From an uncultured Colwellia sp. (GTDB lineage: Bacteria > Pseudomonadota > Gammaproteobacteria > Enterobacterales > Alteromonadaceae), in contig CAJXQI010000011.1 in NCBI GenBank assembly GCA_913058395.1, positions 62,001-126,000 of the forward strand: a DNA stretch of 64,000 nucleotides, in the 5' to 3' direction. Each line of letters opens with the position of its first letter. The first letter of the stretch is position 1. Under the pieces are notes generated by a model, which did not search any database, was not told the DNA's origin, and saw nothing but the letters and a program-made list of their open reading frames with translations. A program made the position numbers and the translations under genes. This document shows, piece after piece, positions 22,434 to 28,902 of this stretch.

Positions 22434-23729
22434 ATGACTAACGAAACAACGCTAGATAAAAACATTACCACTTTAGCTTTTGCAAAAGCATTAGATGCAG
22501 CGGATCCAATCGCGAATATGCGTGAGCACTTTTCTATTCCCAAGCAAGCATCAGGCGAGAATGAATACTACTTCACCGGTAACTCTCTCGGTTTACAACC
22601 CAAACTTGCCCGTGAAGCTGTCATCGAATTGCTTGATGCTTGGCAACAACGTGGCGTTAAAGGGCATTTTGAAGGTGATTACCCTTGGATGCCTTACCAT
22701 GAATTCCTGACTGAGCAAGCCGCTGAAATTGTTGGCGCATTACCAAAAGAGGTGGTGATGATGAATTCGTTAACTGCCAATTTGCATTTTATGATGGCTA
22801 GTTTTTATCAGCCAACTCAACAACGCAGTAAAATATTGATTGAAGACCACGCTTTTCCGTCAGATCATTACGCGGTTGAATCACAACTTAAACATCACAA
22901 TAAAAACGTTGATGACAACCTGTTACTGTGGACACCTCGTGCAGGCGAAGAGCTACTGAATTATGACGATTTATGGCAAATCATTGAGCAACATGGCGAC
23001 GAAATTGCGCTAATTTTACTGCCTGGTGTGCAATATTACACAGGGCAAGTGCTCGATATGAAGCGCATTACAGAGGTGGCTCAAGCCAAAGGAATTAAGG
23101 TCGGGTTTGATCTCGCCCATGCCGCTGGAAATATCGAGCTATCTTTACATGACTGGCAAGTCGATTTTGCTTGTTGGTGTAGTTACAAATATTTAAACAG
23201 TGGCGCAGGCTCAATTGCTGGCTGCTTTGTTCATCAAAAGCATGTAGAAAATACTGAATTGAATCGTCTTGCTGGTTGGTGGGGACATGATAAATCTAGC
23301 CGCTTTAAAATGGAAAATACTTTCAAACCGATTCCAAGCGCCGAAGGTTGGCAATTATCAAATCCGCCAGTATTGTCACTGGCCGCTGTTAGGGGCTCTT
23401 TTGATACCATCAAGCTTGCGGGCGGCATGAAGCCTTTACGGGAAAAATCCTTAAAGCTTAGCCAGTACTTAATTGACTTAATCGCCGCAGAGCTCGGCAG
23501 TAAAATTCGTATTATTACACCGTTAGAAAACTCTCAACGTGGCTGTCAATTATCTCTAATGGTTAATGTTACAGGTTTAGATGGCAAAGCTATGTACAAC
23601 GCCCTAGAAGAAAACGGCGTAACTACGGATTGGCGAGAGCCAAATGTTATCCGTGTCGCTCCCGTACCTTTATATAATAGCTTTCAAGATGTTTATCATT
23701 TTGTCAGAATTTTGAAGGAGTGTATTTAA
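22434..23729 (+). CDS. kynU: kynureninase
   Basis: This PLP-dependent hydrolase (EC 3.7.1.3) cleaves 3-hydroxykynurenine or kynurenine to 3-hydroxyanthranilate or anthranilate plus alanine. Its 431 residues match the family. Seen motifs are YFTGNSLGLQPK, GHFEGDYPWMPYHE, ILLPGVQYYTGQVLD, and GFDLAHAAGN containing the PLP-pairing Asp. The Schiff-base Lys252 lies in CWCSYKYLNSGAGS. It follows the cyclase-family gene by 127 bases, which hold the 12-bp palindrome TCGATTTATCGA at 22381. Its stop codon shares one base with the start of the monooxygenase gene. Confidence 0.97.
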   Translation: MTNETTLDKNITTLAFAKALDAADPIANMREHFSIPKQASGENEYYFTGNSLGLQPKLAREAVIELLDAWQQRGVKGHFEGDYPWMPYHEFLTEQAAEIVGALPKEVVMMNSLTANLHFMMASFYQPTQQRSKILIEDHAFPSDHYAVESQLKHHNKNVDDNLLLWTPRAGEELLNYDDLWQIIEQHGDEIALILLPGVQYYTGQVLDMKRITEVAQAKGIKVGFDLAHAAGNIELSLHDWQVDFACWCSYKYLNSGAGSIAGCFVHQKHVENTELNRLAGWWGHDKSSRFKMENTFKPIPSAEGWQLSNPPVLSLAAVRGSFDTIKLAGGMKPLREKSLKLSQYLIDLIAAELGSKIRIITPLENSQRGCQLSLMVNVTGLDGKAMYNALEENGVTTDWREPNVIRVAPVPLYNSFQDVYHFVRILKECI

Positions 23730-25153
23730 TGGCTAATACACAGTTGAAAAAAAATACCGCGAAAGAAAAAATAACCATAGCTGGTGCAGGTCCAGTCGGT
23801 GCATTACTGGCAGTGATATTAGCCCGACATGGCCACCCTGTTAACTTATGCGAGTCGCGCCCAGACTCAAGAAAACATAGTGTTTATCAAGGTAAATCAA
23901 TCAATATAGCGTTGTCAGATAGAGGATGGTTAGCCTTAGAAGCGGTTGGTATTGCCGAACAAGTTAAACAAAATGCTATCGCGATGAAAAAACGTGTTAT
24001 GCATGCTGTAGATGGCACAATTACCGAACAAGCTTATGGTAAAGAAGGCCAAGCAATATGGTCAGTTTCCCGTGCAGGCATTAACGAACAGTTACTTGAT
24101 TTAGCCGAAAAAGAATCACTTATTAATATTGAGTTTGAACAACGTCTTATAGATGTTGACTTTAACAGCGCATCTGCAAGCTTTAGCCATGAGCATGCAA
24201 TAAATAAAGTCAGTGGTGATATTCTGTTTGGTGCTGACGGCGCTTACTCTAAGGTTCGCCGTTTAGCACAAGAAACCCCGCGCTTTAGTTATAGTCAGTC
24301 ATATATGCCGCAAAGCTATATTGAATTGCATATTCCTGCCAATGCAGACGGTTCTTTTAAAATGGACAAGGACGCACTGCATATTTGGCCTCGTAAAGAC
24401 TTTATGCTGATTGCACTTCCTAATCCTGACGGAACATTTACTTGTACTTTATTTCTCGACTTCCAAGGTGAAGTTTCATTTTCGTCTTTAACACGACGCA
24501 GTGATGTCAGTGAATTTTTCCAACAAAACTTTGCCGATGCCATGTCATTACTTGAAAACCCTGTTGATGAATTTATGGAGAAAACAGCTAATCCTTTATC
24601 ATTGGTTAGTGTTGCCCCTTGGGTGATTAATAACAAAGTTGCTTTAATTGGTGATGCAGCACATGCCATGGTGCCATTTTTTGGCCAAGGTATGAATTGT
24701 GGTTTTGAAGATTGTCGCGTACTCGGTGAATTAATTAGCCAATATAACAATGACTGGTCGCAAATTTTCCCTGCTTACCAAGGCGCTAGAAAAATTAATG
24801 CCGATGCCATCACAGAGTTAGCCAAACGCAACTTTATCGAAATGAGTGAGTATTCAGGGCAGGCATCATTTTTATTACAAAAGAAAATAGAAGCAGAGTT
24901 TCATCAACGCCAACCAAAGCTTTGGACACCACTTTACTCTATGGTGACCTTTTCACCTTTATTGCCCTATTCAGAAGCCCTAGCAATTGGTGACATTCAA
25001 CAAAAAATAATGCAACAAATCATGCGAATACCTGATATCGAACATTGCTGGCAAGAAGACTTTGTATATCAAAAATTGCAGAAACTAGCAGAAGCAGTAT
25101 TTAAAGGGGTAAATAATGAAGCTGTAATACACGCTAGAGGTGAAAATAAATGA
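23729..25153 (+). CDS. kmo: kynurenine 3-monooxygenase
   Basis: This FAD- and NADPH-dependent hydroxylase (EC 1.14.13.9) makes 3-hydroxykynurenine. I start at ATG 23729: GAAGGAG lies about eight bases upstream and the codon overlaps the kynU stop (TAATG). The 474 residues show GAGPVGALLA (FAD, about 16-25), NIALSDRGW, the GADGAYSKVR segment and LIGDAAHAMVPFFGQGMNCGFEDC. The C-terminal third is the hydrophobic membrane-associated tail region of KMO. The stop overlaps the following ATG (ATGA), so translation is coupled. Confidence 0.95.
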   Translation: MANTQLKKNTAKEKITIAGAGPVGALLAVILARHGHPVNLCESRPDSRKHSVYQGKSINIALSDRGWLALEAVGIAEQVKQNAIAMKKRVMHAVDGTITEQAYGKEGQAIWSVSRAGINEQLLDLAEKESLINIEFEQRLIDVDFNSASASFSHEHAINKVSGDILFGADGAYSKVRRLAQETPRFSYSQSYMPQSYIELHIPANADGSFKMDKDALHIWPRKDFMLIALPNPDGTFTCTLFLDFQGEVSFSSLTRRSDVSEFFQQNFADAMSLLENPVDEFMEKTANPLSLVSVAPWVINNKVALIGDAAHAMVPFFGQGMNCGFEDCRVLGELISQYNNDWSQIFPAYQGARKINADAITELAKRNFIEMSEYSGQASFLLQKKIEAEFHQRQPKLWTPLYSMVTFSPLLPYSEALAIGDIQQKIMQQIMRIPDIEHCWQEDFVYQKLQKLAEAVFKGVNNEAVIHARGENK

Positions 25154-25164
25154 GGGTAATTAAA

Positions 25165-26076
25165 ATGACTAAAAAAACGCAAGAAAAAAGTCAGGAAAGC
25201 AAAAACACGGGTTGCCCTTTTCATGCACAACCTAGTAATGAAAAAGAAAACTACCGAGCACTAGAAGACGGTATTCATCAAGACTTTAACGATGAAATGT
25301 CGTACAGCGATTACTTACAGTTAGAGCAAATATTGTCGGCTCAAAAGCCTATCAGTAATGAACATGACGAAATGCTGTTTATTGTCATTCATCAAAGTAG
25401 TGAATTGTGGTTAAAGCTAGCTGGGCATGAATTACAGCGCGCTGTAGAGCATATAAAGTCAGCTAACTTTGGCCCCGCATTTAAAGTTATCGCGCGAGTT
25501 AAGCAAATATTCCTGCAATTAACACAATCTTGGAATATATTATCTACGCTAACGCCAAGTGACTACTTAAAGTTTCGTGACGATTTAGGGCGTTCGTCAG
25601 GTTTTCAATCCTATGGCTACCGTAAGCTGGAGTTTTTATTAGGTAATAAGAATGCTGATATGCTCAGTGTTCACAAAGCTAACGACCCTGCACACCAAGA
25701 ACTAAGCCAGCTATTAAACTCGAACAGCCTTTACGATGAAGTCATCATTGCATTAGCAAATGCAGGCTTTGATATTGATGATAACGTGAAGCAACGCGAT
25801 ATTACACAACCTTATCAGCGTAACGATTCTGTGCTTGCCGCATGGCTAAATGTTTATCAACAACCTGAAACTTATTTTGAATTATATGAGTTAGCAGAAA
25901 AGTTGGTTGATATTGAAGATGCCTTTCAGCAGTGGCGCTTCAAGCATATGTATACCGTGCAACGTATTATTGGTTATAAACAAGGAACAGGTGGCTCATC
26001 TGGGGTAGGCTTTTTGAAAAAAGCTCTGGATGTCAGCTTTTTCCCAGAGCTTTTTGAAGTTAGAACACACTTATAA
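25165..26076 (+). CDS. kynA: tryptophan 2,3-dioxygenase
   Basis: This heme enzyme (EC 1.13.11.11) opens the indole ring to N-formylkynurenine. Key segments are MSYSDYLQLEQILSAQKP, FIVIHQSSELWLKL (substrate-binding His), FRDDLGRSSGFQS, and the proximal heme ligand His261 in RFKHMYTVQRIIG, followed by GTGGSSGVGFL. I prefer the ATG at 25165 because GAGGG sits eight bases upstream; the ATG at 25150 overlapping the kmo stop is possible. The 303-residue product has an N-terminal extension with Cys17-Pro18 in NTGCPFHAQ. It is the last gene of the cluster although it catalyses the first step. Confidence 0.96.
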   Translation: MTKKTQEKSQESKNTGCPFHAQPSNEKENYRALEDGIHQDFNDEMSYSDYLQLEQILSAQKPISNEHDEMLFIVIHQSSELWLKLAGHELQRAVEHIKSANFGPAFKVIARVKQIFLQLTQSWNILSTLTPSDYLKFRDDLGRSSGFQSYGYRKLEFLLGNKNADMLSVHKANDPAHQELSQLLNSNSLYDEVIIALANAGFDIDDNVKQRDITQPYQRNDSVLAAWLNVYQQPETYFELYELAEKLVDIEDAFQQWRFKHMYTVQRIIGYKQGTGGSSGVGFLKKALDVSFFPELFEVRTHL

Positions 26077-26588: not shown

Positions 26589-27254
26589 CTACCAAGGTAA
26601 CACTTCACCATTAGAGTGTCTGAATACGCCACTTTCATTAAGGTTAAGTTGATTAATTAACTTTACCAATCGCTGTGCAGATTCACTAGCACTGATATCA
26701 CCACCATAATTAACCATATCAGTTTGTACATAACCGGGATGATAAATACCAACTGCTATTTCTTGACTGGCAAGATCATGCGACAAAGACATTGCTGCCG
26801 CGTTTAAAGCCGCTTTCGACATTCTGTATCCGTAACGTCCACCAGAACTATTATCAGCAATAGAACCCATTCTCGATGTAATAAGCGCTATTTTTGCACC
26901 TTGTTGTAGTTGCTGCTGTAAACTGGCTACAACATTTAGCGGCGCCAAGGCATTAATTTCAAATTGTTCTCGTATGGTGTCGAGGTTTAAATCATTTAAA
27001 CTTTCATCACGTAAAATACCGGCATTACAAACTAAAACATCAATATTAACTTTCGCTAAAGCGGTAGCCATATGTTTAATACCTAGCTCGGTAGCTACGT
27101 CGACATGTTCAATCACATTTACCTGCAGGGTATTCAATTCATCAGAGGTTTGACGGCAAAGTGCAAAAACGTTATCGCCTTGGGCTTGAAAGTGTTTAGT
27201 CATAGCTAAACCAATACCACGGTTAGCGCCTGTAATAACAATATTCTTATTCAT
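26589..27254 (-). CDS. SDR-family oxidoreductase (C-factor-like)
   Basis: This 221-residue short-chain dehydrogenase has GANRGIGLAMTKHF (cofactor, 8-21), VCNAGIL, the catalytic Ser in ITSRMGSI, and Tyr/Lys in YGYRMSKAALN. The C-terminus HPGYVQTDM resembles the CsgA/C-factor and sniffer-like group. Substrate unknown. It is read towards the ATL gene (65 bases apart) and is separated from the repeat-protein gene upstream by a strong terminator. Confidence 0.88.
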   Translation of the reverse strand: MNKNIVITGANRGIGLAMTKHFQAQGDNVFALCRQTSDELNTLQVNVIEHVDVATELGIKHMATALAKVNIDVLVCNAGILRDESLNDLNLDTIREQFEINALAPLNVVASLQQQLQQGAKIALITSRMGSIADNSSGGRYGYRMSKAALNAAAMSLSHDLASQEIAVGIYHPGYVQTDMVNYGGDISASESAQRLVKLINQLNLNESGVFRHSNGEVLPW

Positions 27255-27367: not shown

Positions 27368-27790
27368 TTATTCGCCACATTTACCTTCTTTTTTAGCTTT
27401 ACCTTCGCCACATTTGCCTTCGCCGCACTTACCTTTGGCTTTAGCTTTCATTTTACTTTCACCACATTTGCCTTCACCACACTTACCTTTGGCTTTAGCT
27501 TTCATTTTACTTTCGCCACATTTGCCTTCGCCGCACTTACCTTTGGCTTTAGCTTTTGATTCGCCACATTTGCCTTCGCCACACTTACCTTTGGCTTTGG
27601 CTTTCATTTTACCTTCGCCACACTTGCCTTCACCACATTTGCCTTTTTCGTGGTCATCAGCAGAGACAATAGTCATTACTTCTTGTGTAGCAAACGGGTT
27701 AACTTCAGCTTTTGCTGGCATAGTTACCGCGACTGCCAATGTAAATAAGCCTAATAAAGCCGCAATTGAAGATTTTTTGATTAATTTCAT
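27368..27790 (-). CDS. exported GKCGE-repeat protein, HvfA/bufferin-like (EGKCG type)
   Basis: The 140-residue protein has a signal peptide (1-28, ending MPAKA) and a short spacer containing DDHEKGK. The rest is low complexity: eleven GKCGE units, mostly paired and separated by K/M/A-rich linkers such as SKMKAKAK. Six units read EGKCG and five KGKCG. This is the composition of HvfA-type precursors, whose EGKCG cysteines are reported to be modified by a DUF692 (MNIO) oxidase with a partner protein, giving copper-binding bufferin-type RiPPs. No DUF692 or partner gene is visible in this window, so modification is an inference. Eleven Cys suggest metal binding. Divergent from dusC. Confidence 0.82.
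   Translation of the reverse strand: MKLIKKSSIAALLGLFTLAVAVTMPAKAEVNPFATQEVMTIVSADDHEKGKCGEGKCGEGKMKAKAKGKCGEGKCGESKAKAKGKCGEGKCGESKMKAKAKGKCGEGKCGESKMKAKAKGKCGEGKCGEGKAKKEGKCGE
27371..27649 (-). repeat. in-gene tandem repeat coding GKCGE units
   Basis: Imperfect units of roughly 50-55 bases recur about five times; each encodes two GKCGE blocks plus a Lys/Ala linker. Units differ mostly at third positions and by indels of whole codons, as expected for selected protein repeats. Confidence 0.85.
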
Positions 27791-27948: not shown

Positions 27949-28902
27949 ATGAAACCTCAAGTAAAAAAAATCATACTGGCACCTATGGAAGGTGTAGCTG
28001 ATGAACTCATGCGTCATTTATTAACCTCGCTAAACAACTATGATTTTTGTATTACCGAATTTGTTCGTATTGTTGATGCTTTATTACCTAAGCATGTTTT
28101 TCAAAGAATATGCCCAGAACTAGATAATGGCTGCAAAACAAAAAGTGGCACGCCTCTTCGTATGCAGCTACTTGGTCAAGAGCCAGAATGGATGGCAGAG
28201 AACGCCGTTAGAGCGATAGAAATGGGCTCACACGGAATTGATATTAACTTTGGTTGCCCAGCAAAAGCGGTCAATAAAAGTAAAGGTGGCGCAGTTCTTT
28301 TAAATGAGCCAGAAAAAATTTATCAAATTCTCAGTAGCATACGCTCAGCCGTCGGTACGGATGATATTCTATCTGCCAAAATAAGGTTAGGTTTTACTGA
28401 TGCATCAAAATTGGATGAAATTGTTAGTGCGGTGGAGTCTGCAAATGCCAATCAGTTAACCATTCATGCTAGGACAAAACAAGATGGTTACCGCCCCCCT
28501 GCTTATTGGCACTTTATTGCAGAGATAAAAGCAAAATACGATATTGAAATATTTGCCAATGGCGAAATTTGGAATAAAGAAGATGCGTATAGCTGTATGT
28601 CTCAAAGTCAAACACCCAACTTAATGTTAGGTCGTGGGGCGCTTGCAATGCCCAATTTAGCCAATGTGATTAAGCTAGATGAAGCACCGATGCCTTGGCA
28701 CGAGTTAAGTTCACTATTAAAACAGTATAGTGACTTAGAATTACAAGGCGATAAAAGCTACTACTTTTCAAGTCGTTTAAAACAATGGTTACGTTATTTA
28801 AAACTGCAATATCCTCAGGCAAATACCCTGTTCAATGCGATTAAAGTATTAAAAAATAAAGATGAGATCCTCTACCAAATTGACTTAGTAGAAAATACCT
28901 AA
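27949..28902 (+). CDS. dusC: tRNA-dihydrouridine(16) synthase DusC
   Basis: This FMN enzyme reduces U16 of tRNA. The 317 residues follow E. coli DusC closely: ILAPMEGVADELMRHLLT, YDFCITEFVRIVDALLP, then GIDINFGCPAKAVNKSKGGA with catalytic Cys103, then HARTKQDGYR and FANGEIW. The C-terminal helical tRNA-binding domain carries LKQWLRYLK. Residues LLPKHVFQRICPEL are specific to DusC rather than DusA or DusB. It is divergent from the repeat-protein gene, with 158 bases between the two starts. Confidence 0.95.
   Translation: MKPQVKKIILAPMEGVADELMRHLLTSLNNYDFCITEFVRIVDALLPKHVFQRICPELDNGCKTKSGTPLRMQLLGQEPEWMAENAVRAIEMGSHGIDINFGCPAKAVNKSKGGAVLLNEPEKIYQILSSIRSAVGTDDILSAKIRLGFTDASKLDEIVSAVESANANQLTIHARTKQDGYRPPAYWHFIAEIKAKYDIEIFANGEIWNKEDAYSCMSQSQTPNLMLGRGALAMPNLANVIKLDEAPMPWHELSSLLKQYSDLELQGDKSYYFSSRLKQWLRYLKLQYPQANTLFNAIKVLKNKDEILYQIDLVENT

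Follow-up and report, generated by a model that had tools for sequence, protein, structure and literature searches.

What does a gene for a cysteine-rich precursor protein do where the enzymes that modify the products of its relatives are not encoded beside it? The question is raised by an ORF of the window, by which we mean the whole 64,000-nucleotide stretch of DNA from an uncultured Colwellia sp. that was analysed here. An earlier note on this DNA had offered three answers, namely that the modifying enzymes act in trans, that the peptide works unmodified as a Cys-rich metal buffer, or that a neighbouring SDR is a new partner, and the second of these fits best. Judging from the genome comparisons described below, it is probable that the gene is a former RiPP precursor gene that has outlived its enzymes, and that its product, induced by stress, now buffers metals in the periplasm with thiols that are not modified.

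The gene occupies positions 27368 to 27790 of the minus strand (the earlier note named no strand), starts with ATG and encodes the 140-aa protein with 11 KCGE units that had been described. Export of this protein is predicted by reading: residues 1-28 (27707-27790) resemble a Sec-type signal peptide, MKLIKKSS...MPAKA followed by EVNPF, which is conserved in the genus and is without the 'GAVVIGS'-type stretch of many precursors that are linked to an MNIO (DUF692) gene. The spacer of residues 29-49, EVNPFATQEVMTIVSADDHEK (27644-27706), keeps NPF and has no LxxGY, and the repeat region of residues 50-140 (27371-27643) is made up of five GKCGEGKCGE pairs and one terminal GKCGE with Lys/Ala linkers. 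Synonymous codons vary from unit to unit across the 11 GKCGE units, and an acidic residue precedes GKCG in 6 of the 11. The regularity of the pairs had been thought unusual, but paired EGKCG units in regular repeats are a known layout. AlphaFold2 modelling of the window protein and 8 relatives was uninformative (mean pLDDT 38) and gave no confirmation of a beta-helix such as has been reported for a relative. As had been claimed, the gene has an intrinsic terminator of its own, a 15-pair hairpin at 27330-27298 on the minus strand (-22.9 kcal/mol, z -6.9; 1 found against 0.5 expected in shuffles).

The proposed relation to the HvfA and bufferin families stands in its first part, and for its second no profile match was obtained. 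The window protein scores 90.3 bits, far above chance, with the NCBIfam model NF050137 (KCGExKCG_twice, HvfA family; cut-off 19.5), and the DUF2282 and BufA2 profiles of Pfam and NCBIfam gave no match to it at E up to 1, nor did a Pfam search as a whole at the same threshold. Its 71.9 bits with the equivalog model NF050188 (OxThioModRiPPHvfA) lie below the cut-off of 95, a miss that does not decide family membership since the three MNIO-linked relatives tested, at 65, 84 and 30 bits, fail this model as well. Judged by its locus and its domain, the window gene is a member of the HvfA/EGKCG family and an orthologue of hvfA. The name attached to NF050137, 'oxazolone/thioamide-modified RiPP metallophore', is probably wrong for proteins of the kind described here, which is a warning for their annotation.

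The genome that contains the window (4.39 Mb in 43 contigs, 99.96% complete, with the window on contig C11) was searched for DUF692 and DUF2063 genes, as the earlier note had proposed, and two of each were found, every DUF2063 gene lying beside an MNIO gene. Neither pair is encoded with the window precursor, in agreement with the claim that no MNIO gene is nearby; they are located on contigs C4 and C14, each accompanied by a DoxX gene and by a precursor gene of its own. On C4 the enzyme scores 394.8 bits with the BufB model, above the cut-off of 310, and the precursor passes the BufA2 model; the C14 enzyme falls just under the same BufB cut-off (298.9 bits), next to a precursor that scores 27.4 against a BufA2 cut-off of 60 yet has a DUF2282 match in Pfam. 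The HvfB model is passed by neither enzyme. The MNIOs of this genome thus belong to bufferins, and the window gene is therefore an orphan. Bufferins of the BufA2/DUF2282 type resemble the orphan in being exported Cys-rich precursors of copper buffers, and one of their two operons in this genome has a similar promoter, but they differ in the pattern of their cysteines and in having MNIO, DUF2063 and DoxX genes in their own operons. The presence of two MNIO and DUF2063 pairs allows for modification in trans, in which the bufferin-type enzymes encoded elsewhere would modify the orphan in addition to the precursors of their own operons; the failure of both enzymes with the HvfB model, together with the BufB scores, speaks against this explanation, which we regard as unlikely for the further reasons given below.

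The orphan gene is conserved in the window's genus, and the orphan state is the rule in the lineage. A match was obtained in each of the 17 genus genomes, 16 of these matches being read as the orphan type (the other, in G157, is cut by a contig end), and both MNIO and DUF2063 genes occur in the same 7 of the 17. In a sample of 147 genomes of the family, EGKCG proteins were found in 110 and MNIO in 107, with 23 genomes having the former and not the latter. The two samples together contain 31 MNIO-less genomes (23 from the family and 8 from the genus), of which 26 are at least 90% complete, 5 are below 90%, and 9 consist of one contig. Genes were read from 117 of the 121 matched genomes, the copies per genome being those among the matches listed; G025, G026 and G136, for which the place of the EGKCG match was not listed, were left out along with G157. 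All 30 readable genes from MNIO-less genomes are of the stand-alone, orphan type, and this type occurs also in 22 genomes that have MNIO elsewhere (22 of 52 orphan genomes). One genome of the latter kind, G156, carries both an MNIO-linked copy with LxxGY and an orphan without it. The earlier note had taken a constant lack of MNIO in the genomes of homologues to count against the proposed relation; many of them do lack one, but by locus and domain the gene is nonetheless an HvfA orthologue.

Names of further hosts were obtained from a scan in which the best 80 of 295 relatives were inspected, and which contained 20 stand-alone genes without LxxGY among the matches listed. Nineteen of these are in records named Colwellia, Cognaticolwellia, Thalassotalea or Litorilituus; the remaining record is Endozoicomonas sp. 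G2_1, which has a Colwellia-type orphan and whose genus name looks wrong, since G001, the sampled genome that seems to correspond to it, is placed by rpoB within the clade of orphans described below. Because at least 9 of the 20 are, to judge by length, contigs already present in the two genome samples, the scan serves to supply names more than to provide independent evidence.

Such a distribution bears directly on modification in trans, which appears unlikely because the orphans differ little in form between the genomes in which an MNIO is present and the 30 with a readable gene in which none was found. Some stand-alone genes do keep LxxGY, among them one in G036 and one in G077. In these two genomes, both outside the clade described below, the gene lies tens of kilobases from an MNIO gene on the same contig (G036:C6:3485681 and 3544848; G077:C18:33134 and 91628), for which reason trans action may exist in the family and the two genes are candidates for it; the other four genes among the six of this class (in G044, G051, G089 and G138) lie where their contigs end, and assembly splits may account for them.

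To place the orphans in a phylogeny we used a quick rpoB tree with a midpoint root, which covers 66 of 70 requested genomes (four, including the window's own, gave no rpoB). All 25 orphan genomes of the tree are in a single clade of 28 rows (SH-aLRT 100) that comprises Colwellia, Cognaticolwellia and Thalassotalea. The remaining three rows of the clade are G021 and G046, which have no match, and G025, with a weak and unread one; outside the clade are 31 genomes whose precursor is linked to an MNIO gene, together with G036 and its stand-alone LxxGY gene. The linked copy of G156 is thus found in a genome inside the clade.

The orphans of this clade share a place in the genome. Next to the window gene and divergent from it lies a gene for a Dus-family tRNA dihydrouridine synthase (27949-28902, plus strand; 'dusC', although the Pfam match is to Dus only), which marks the ancestral locus and adjoins the orphan in 44 of 52 genomes; the other 8 orphans belong to the genera g38 and g52 and have dnaX downstream (named by eye). 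Outside the clade, in the genera g18, g20 and g35, a divergent dusC is followed at the same place by hvfA-hvfB-hvfC (hvfC by eye), and in G098 this arrangement continues into apt-dnaX. Pseudoalteromonas is among the outside relatives with the full set, whereas in the clade hvfA stands by itself. The full arrangement of dusC and hvfA-hvfB-hvfC, followed by apt and dnaX, is likewise present in Shewanella atlantica, S. colwelliana and S. chilikensis, and in S. chilikensis an ORF that looks by eye like a response regulator precedes apt, as it does in several orphan genera. The window locus is orthologous to the canonical hvfABC operon, the same dusC, hvfA and apt-dnaX surroundings being found with hvfBC and without (hvfC and dnaX were named by eye in these loci). 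The simplest history would be that the stem of the clade lost hvfBC a single time at this locus, and it is favoured over a later gain since hvfBC would then have had to enter one and the same site more than once, in different lineages. According to this reconstruction, the ancestral hvfA would have specified the precursor of an MNIO-modified copper-binding peptide, and the stem lineage would have lost hvfB (the MNIO) and hvfC (the DUF2063 partner) from between hvfA and apt-dnaX.

A comparison of neighbours, also proposed in the earlier note, revealed no conserved local gene for modification, and besides dusC no conserved local partner was found among the neighbours of the orphans. Downstream of them are genes for a response regulator, apt, dnaX, ybaB, or an SDR gene together with an MGMT-like gene. 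The SDR gene of the window (26589-27254, minus strand) was suggested as encoding a new modification partner; it is on the same strand as the orphan and downstream of it in the majority of loci from the window's genus as well as in g34, g39 and g41, but it is absent from the locus in g4, g8, g12, g27, g38 and g52, it encodes an ordinary adh_short protein, and the terminator described above separates it from the orphan. We place it outside the system and consider a role for it extremely improbable, given that it is present in only part of the orphan clade and that its place is taken in other genera by a response regulator gene and apt-dnaX. As a separate observation, a single-domain response regulator separates the orphan from apt-dnaX in several genera (L111, L114, L116, L119 and others). 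Farther along the window, at 23720-26076, two adjacent genes read by eye as those for kynurenine 3-monooxygenase and tryptophan 2,3-dioxygenase.

The orphans also differ from linked precursors in the protein itself, which we compared between 60 readable linked precursors and 52 orphans (three further linked precursors have a leader that cannot be read, that of G043 being masked and those of G044 and G051 lying at contig ends), using motifs that were chosen after inspection of these same sequences. Just before the repeats the linked precursors have LxxGY (58 of 60) or LxxAY (2 of 60); LxxGY is found in none of the 52 orphans, the window protein included. The stretch G-[AG]-hydrophobic...-[ST] of the signal peptide occurs in 44 of 60 linked precursors but in none of the 48 orphan proteins compared. 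Units were counted in 50 orphans, leaving out genes with masked stretches or fewer than 90 aa (the orphans G120 and G112). Glu or Asp precedes GKCG in 664 of 664 cases in the linked precursors as against 270 of 503 in the orphans, only 3 of the 50 keeping the acid at every GKCG, and the residue before the first Cys of an orphan pair is mostly Lys instead of Glu (170 of 196 pairs). Orphans are also somewhat less regular, with 464 of 561 units paired versus 672 of 708, and more basic, with a net charge per 100 residues of about +17 versus +10. These changes are much the same whether or not the genome has an MNIO: the acid is present before GKCG at 159 of 289 sites (55%) in MNIO-less genomes and at 111 of 214 (52%) in MNIO-bearing ones. 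Considering the 30 MNIO-less genomes with a readable gene along with the lost features of linked precursors, the claim that enzymes act in trans on the orphan is unlikely to hold.

How these losses should be read depends on what the enzymes recognize. The accessible portions of the respective reports state that the signal peptide serves as leader for HvfBC (PMC13419390) and that the leader of MmrA is conserved and was modelled on its partner (PMC12538549), on which grounds a loss of enzyme recognition by the orphans is plausible. For FonA, Ala scans described in the part of the study that was available indicate that no single leader position is essential and that Glu is not strictly required (PMC13097082). 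LxxGY is not a universal mark of substrates either, as six MNIO-linked precursors in the scan of the best 80 of 295 relatives lack it. In that scan 44 of 54 linked precursors had LxxGY or LxxAY; the six without are from Agitococcus, Haemophilus, Mannheimia, Bibersteinia, Neisseria and a Bacteroidetes MAG, and the remainder comprise two with variants of the motif and two that are unreadable. Since the change probably happened once, the losses of features amount to one phylogenetic event, and they could be lineage drift unrelated to the loss of the enzymes.

What the orphans have kept is their cysteines. Six to 19 are present per orphan protein read (11 in the window protein), with 561 of 566 in the context KCG and 545 of 561 units reading KCGE. 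The number is odd in 26 of the 50 orphans, so that a strict pairing of the cysteines in disulfides looks unlikely. Within the genus the units are under constraint at the protein level: codons 51-59 from ATG have a pS of 0.62 and a pN of 0.04 (15 genes; one with a one-codon deletion was left out), and the last four codons a pS of 0.34 and a pN of 0 (16 genes). The values for the nine MNIO-less genus genes are 0.57 and 0.07 for codons 51-59 and 0.11 and 0 for the last four, and dN/dS in residues 1-46 is 0.11-0.13 in the genus, for pairs that are not independent. An exception within the genus is G155, in which a block without Cys occupies the position of the second unit of the others. Two alternatives are to be considered at this point. 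A functionless leftover gene on its way out might be suspected from the two genomes inside the clade that have no match (G021 and G046), but the gene was read in 25 of the 28 clade rows, with an unread match in one more (G025), and its constrained units and retained promoter make this very improbable. It is also possible, though doubtful, that a non-MNIO enzyme encoded elsewhere now modifies the orphan cysteines, as the nearly invariant KCG(E) context is what a sequence-reading enzyme would keep. Such an enzyme, recruited in trans after the loss of hvfBC and working without the old leader and Glu, would represent a non-MNIO route to a copper-binding protein with modified Cys, an outcome that we hold to be improbable; there is no conserved candidate adjoining the gene, and the downstream neighbours vary between genera, with the recurring ones looking like housekeeping genes.

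The promoter is a further feature that the orphans have in common with linked precursors. The earlier note claimed a promoter region for the window gene, and this holds in the form of an ECF-type element, TGAAAT-N17-GGTCT, at 27877-27850 of the minus strand, 59 nt before the ATG and within a block that is conserved in the genus; a sigma-70 promoter was not matched upstream of the gene. Among 50 orphans, 37 are preceded by TGAAA-N16-19-GGTCT, as are 43 of the 60 linked genes and 5 of the 6 stand-alone genes with LxxGY, whereas it occurs in 0 of 5488 background windows and 0 of 456 regions upstream of other genes in the larger loci. The form TGAAA...GGTCT suggests an ECF sigma factor. When applied to the whole genome that contains the window, the strict pattern lacks specificity, its 12 matches being barely above the 7 for a reversed control, and only two of the 12 fall outside ORFs of more than 150 aa. 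A closely similar element, TGAAAT-N17-GGTCA, precedes the C4-type bufferin operon in all 7 genus genomes with MNIO, for which reason the orphan and this operon may be co-expressed, a point in favour of modification in trans. The element was found before the C14-type operon in 0 of the 5 genus genomes inspected; of three clade genomes from outside the genus, two are without it, and in the third a match precedes what reads by eye as a thioredoxin-like gene located upstream of the bufferin genes.

The one copy in the window's genome, other than that of the orphan, which lies outside a long ORF is 103 nt upstream of a DUF417 gene (L345 562-1398; G000:C4 near 190189). This gene is a possible second member of the regulon. 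RclC of E. coli is a DUF417 protein that belongs to the resistance against reactive chlorine, and the gene near the promoter copy may be RclC-like. The main alternative to a metal buffer, that the unmodified protein is a sacrificial thiol or oxidant sink, draws in part on this likeness and may be entertained tentatively. It is in keeping with an operon of H. influenzae with DoxX, UPF0276 and DUF2063 genes that, according to the accessible text on this system, is under the control of the ECF factor RpoE2 and answers to hypochlorite (PMC7907618). On the other side, two promoter matches are a thin basis, in particular with a genome-wide pattern so close to its control, and a role in metal binding would agree equally with the repeated basic arrays of Cys and with the fact that modified relatives bind copper.

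We therefore return to the protein as an unmodified metal buffer. The gene has persisted in a lineage from which the enzyme genes belonging to it have disappeared, and this suggests that its product works unmodified. After the loss of hvfBC, the precursor would have lost its leader motif and the acid before each GKCG and kept its signal peptide, the KCGE cysteines and the stress promoter. Envelope stress would then most likely switch the gene on by way of an ECF sigma factor, Sec would export the protein to the periplasm, and unmodified Cys thiolates spaced along a highly basic chain would buffer soft metals there, Cu(I) first; we infer the binding of metal from composition. The occurrence of MNIO in 22 of the 52 orphan genomes, the completeness below 90% of 5 of the 31 MNIO-less ones, and the lack of a match in G021 and G046 of the clade are points that run counter to this reading. 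Metallothionein-like and copper storage proteins bind soft metals through many unmodified thiolates, and we liken the orphan to them purely as a working analogy.

Among known systems the closest are the precursors of the HvfA/oxazolin and Buf_EGKCG groups (FonA fontiphorin, MmrA), which have in common with the orphan a signal peptide (predicted by reading in the orphan), paired KCG units and a richness in Lys, Glu and Gly, and share with it the NPF-type spacer (in many), the dusC locus (in some relatives) and the type of promoter. Unlike those systems, the orphan locus has no HvfB and HvfC, and in 30 genomes no MNIO was found; the orphan differs also in the absence of LxxGY and of the GAVVIGS-type leader, in the Lys before the first Cys, in being more basic and in having more single units. 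Stand-alone and MNIO-less EGKCG genes are already known, as rare ones: the accessible part of Antoine et al. 2025 reports that 67 of 2583 genomes have Buf_EGKCG but lack an MNIO, describes single-gene units, and suggests that such peptides may act unmodified or have lost their function (PMC12452194). Where such genes are treated as rare in that portion of the paper, those described here form a conserved group of orthologues in one clade, with a changed leader, a mapped locus and a promoter. The Colwellia-type clade, the dusC locus, the lost features and the shared promoter were not found in the literature searched, which consisted mostly of non-subscription texts without supplements.

With a precursor kept, its promoter and cysteines conserved and its own enzymes gone, the clade represents a natural experiment on the purpose of thiooxazole modification, and the question of whether EGKCG proteins work unmodified becomes directly testable in MNIO-less marine bacteria. 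The contrast between the orthologues also offers candidate features for recognition by MNIO, namely GAVVIGS and LxxGY in the leader and the acid before GKCG.

Two minor observations concern the bufferin loci of the genome. A BufA2-type bufferin precursor of 157 aa (L003 4361-4834) combines two Cys-rich blocks in one protein. The second MNIO locus (L004 3420-10808) lies beside genes that read by eye as those for a thioredoxin-like protein, a small exported protein, a permease and an ArsR-like regulator, and may be a metal-response island.
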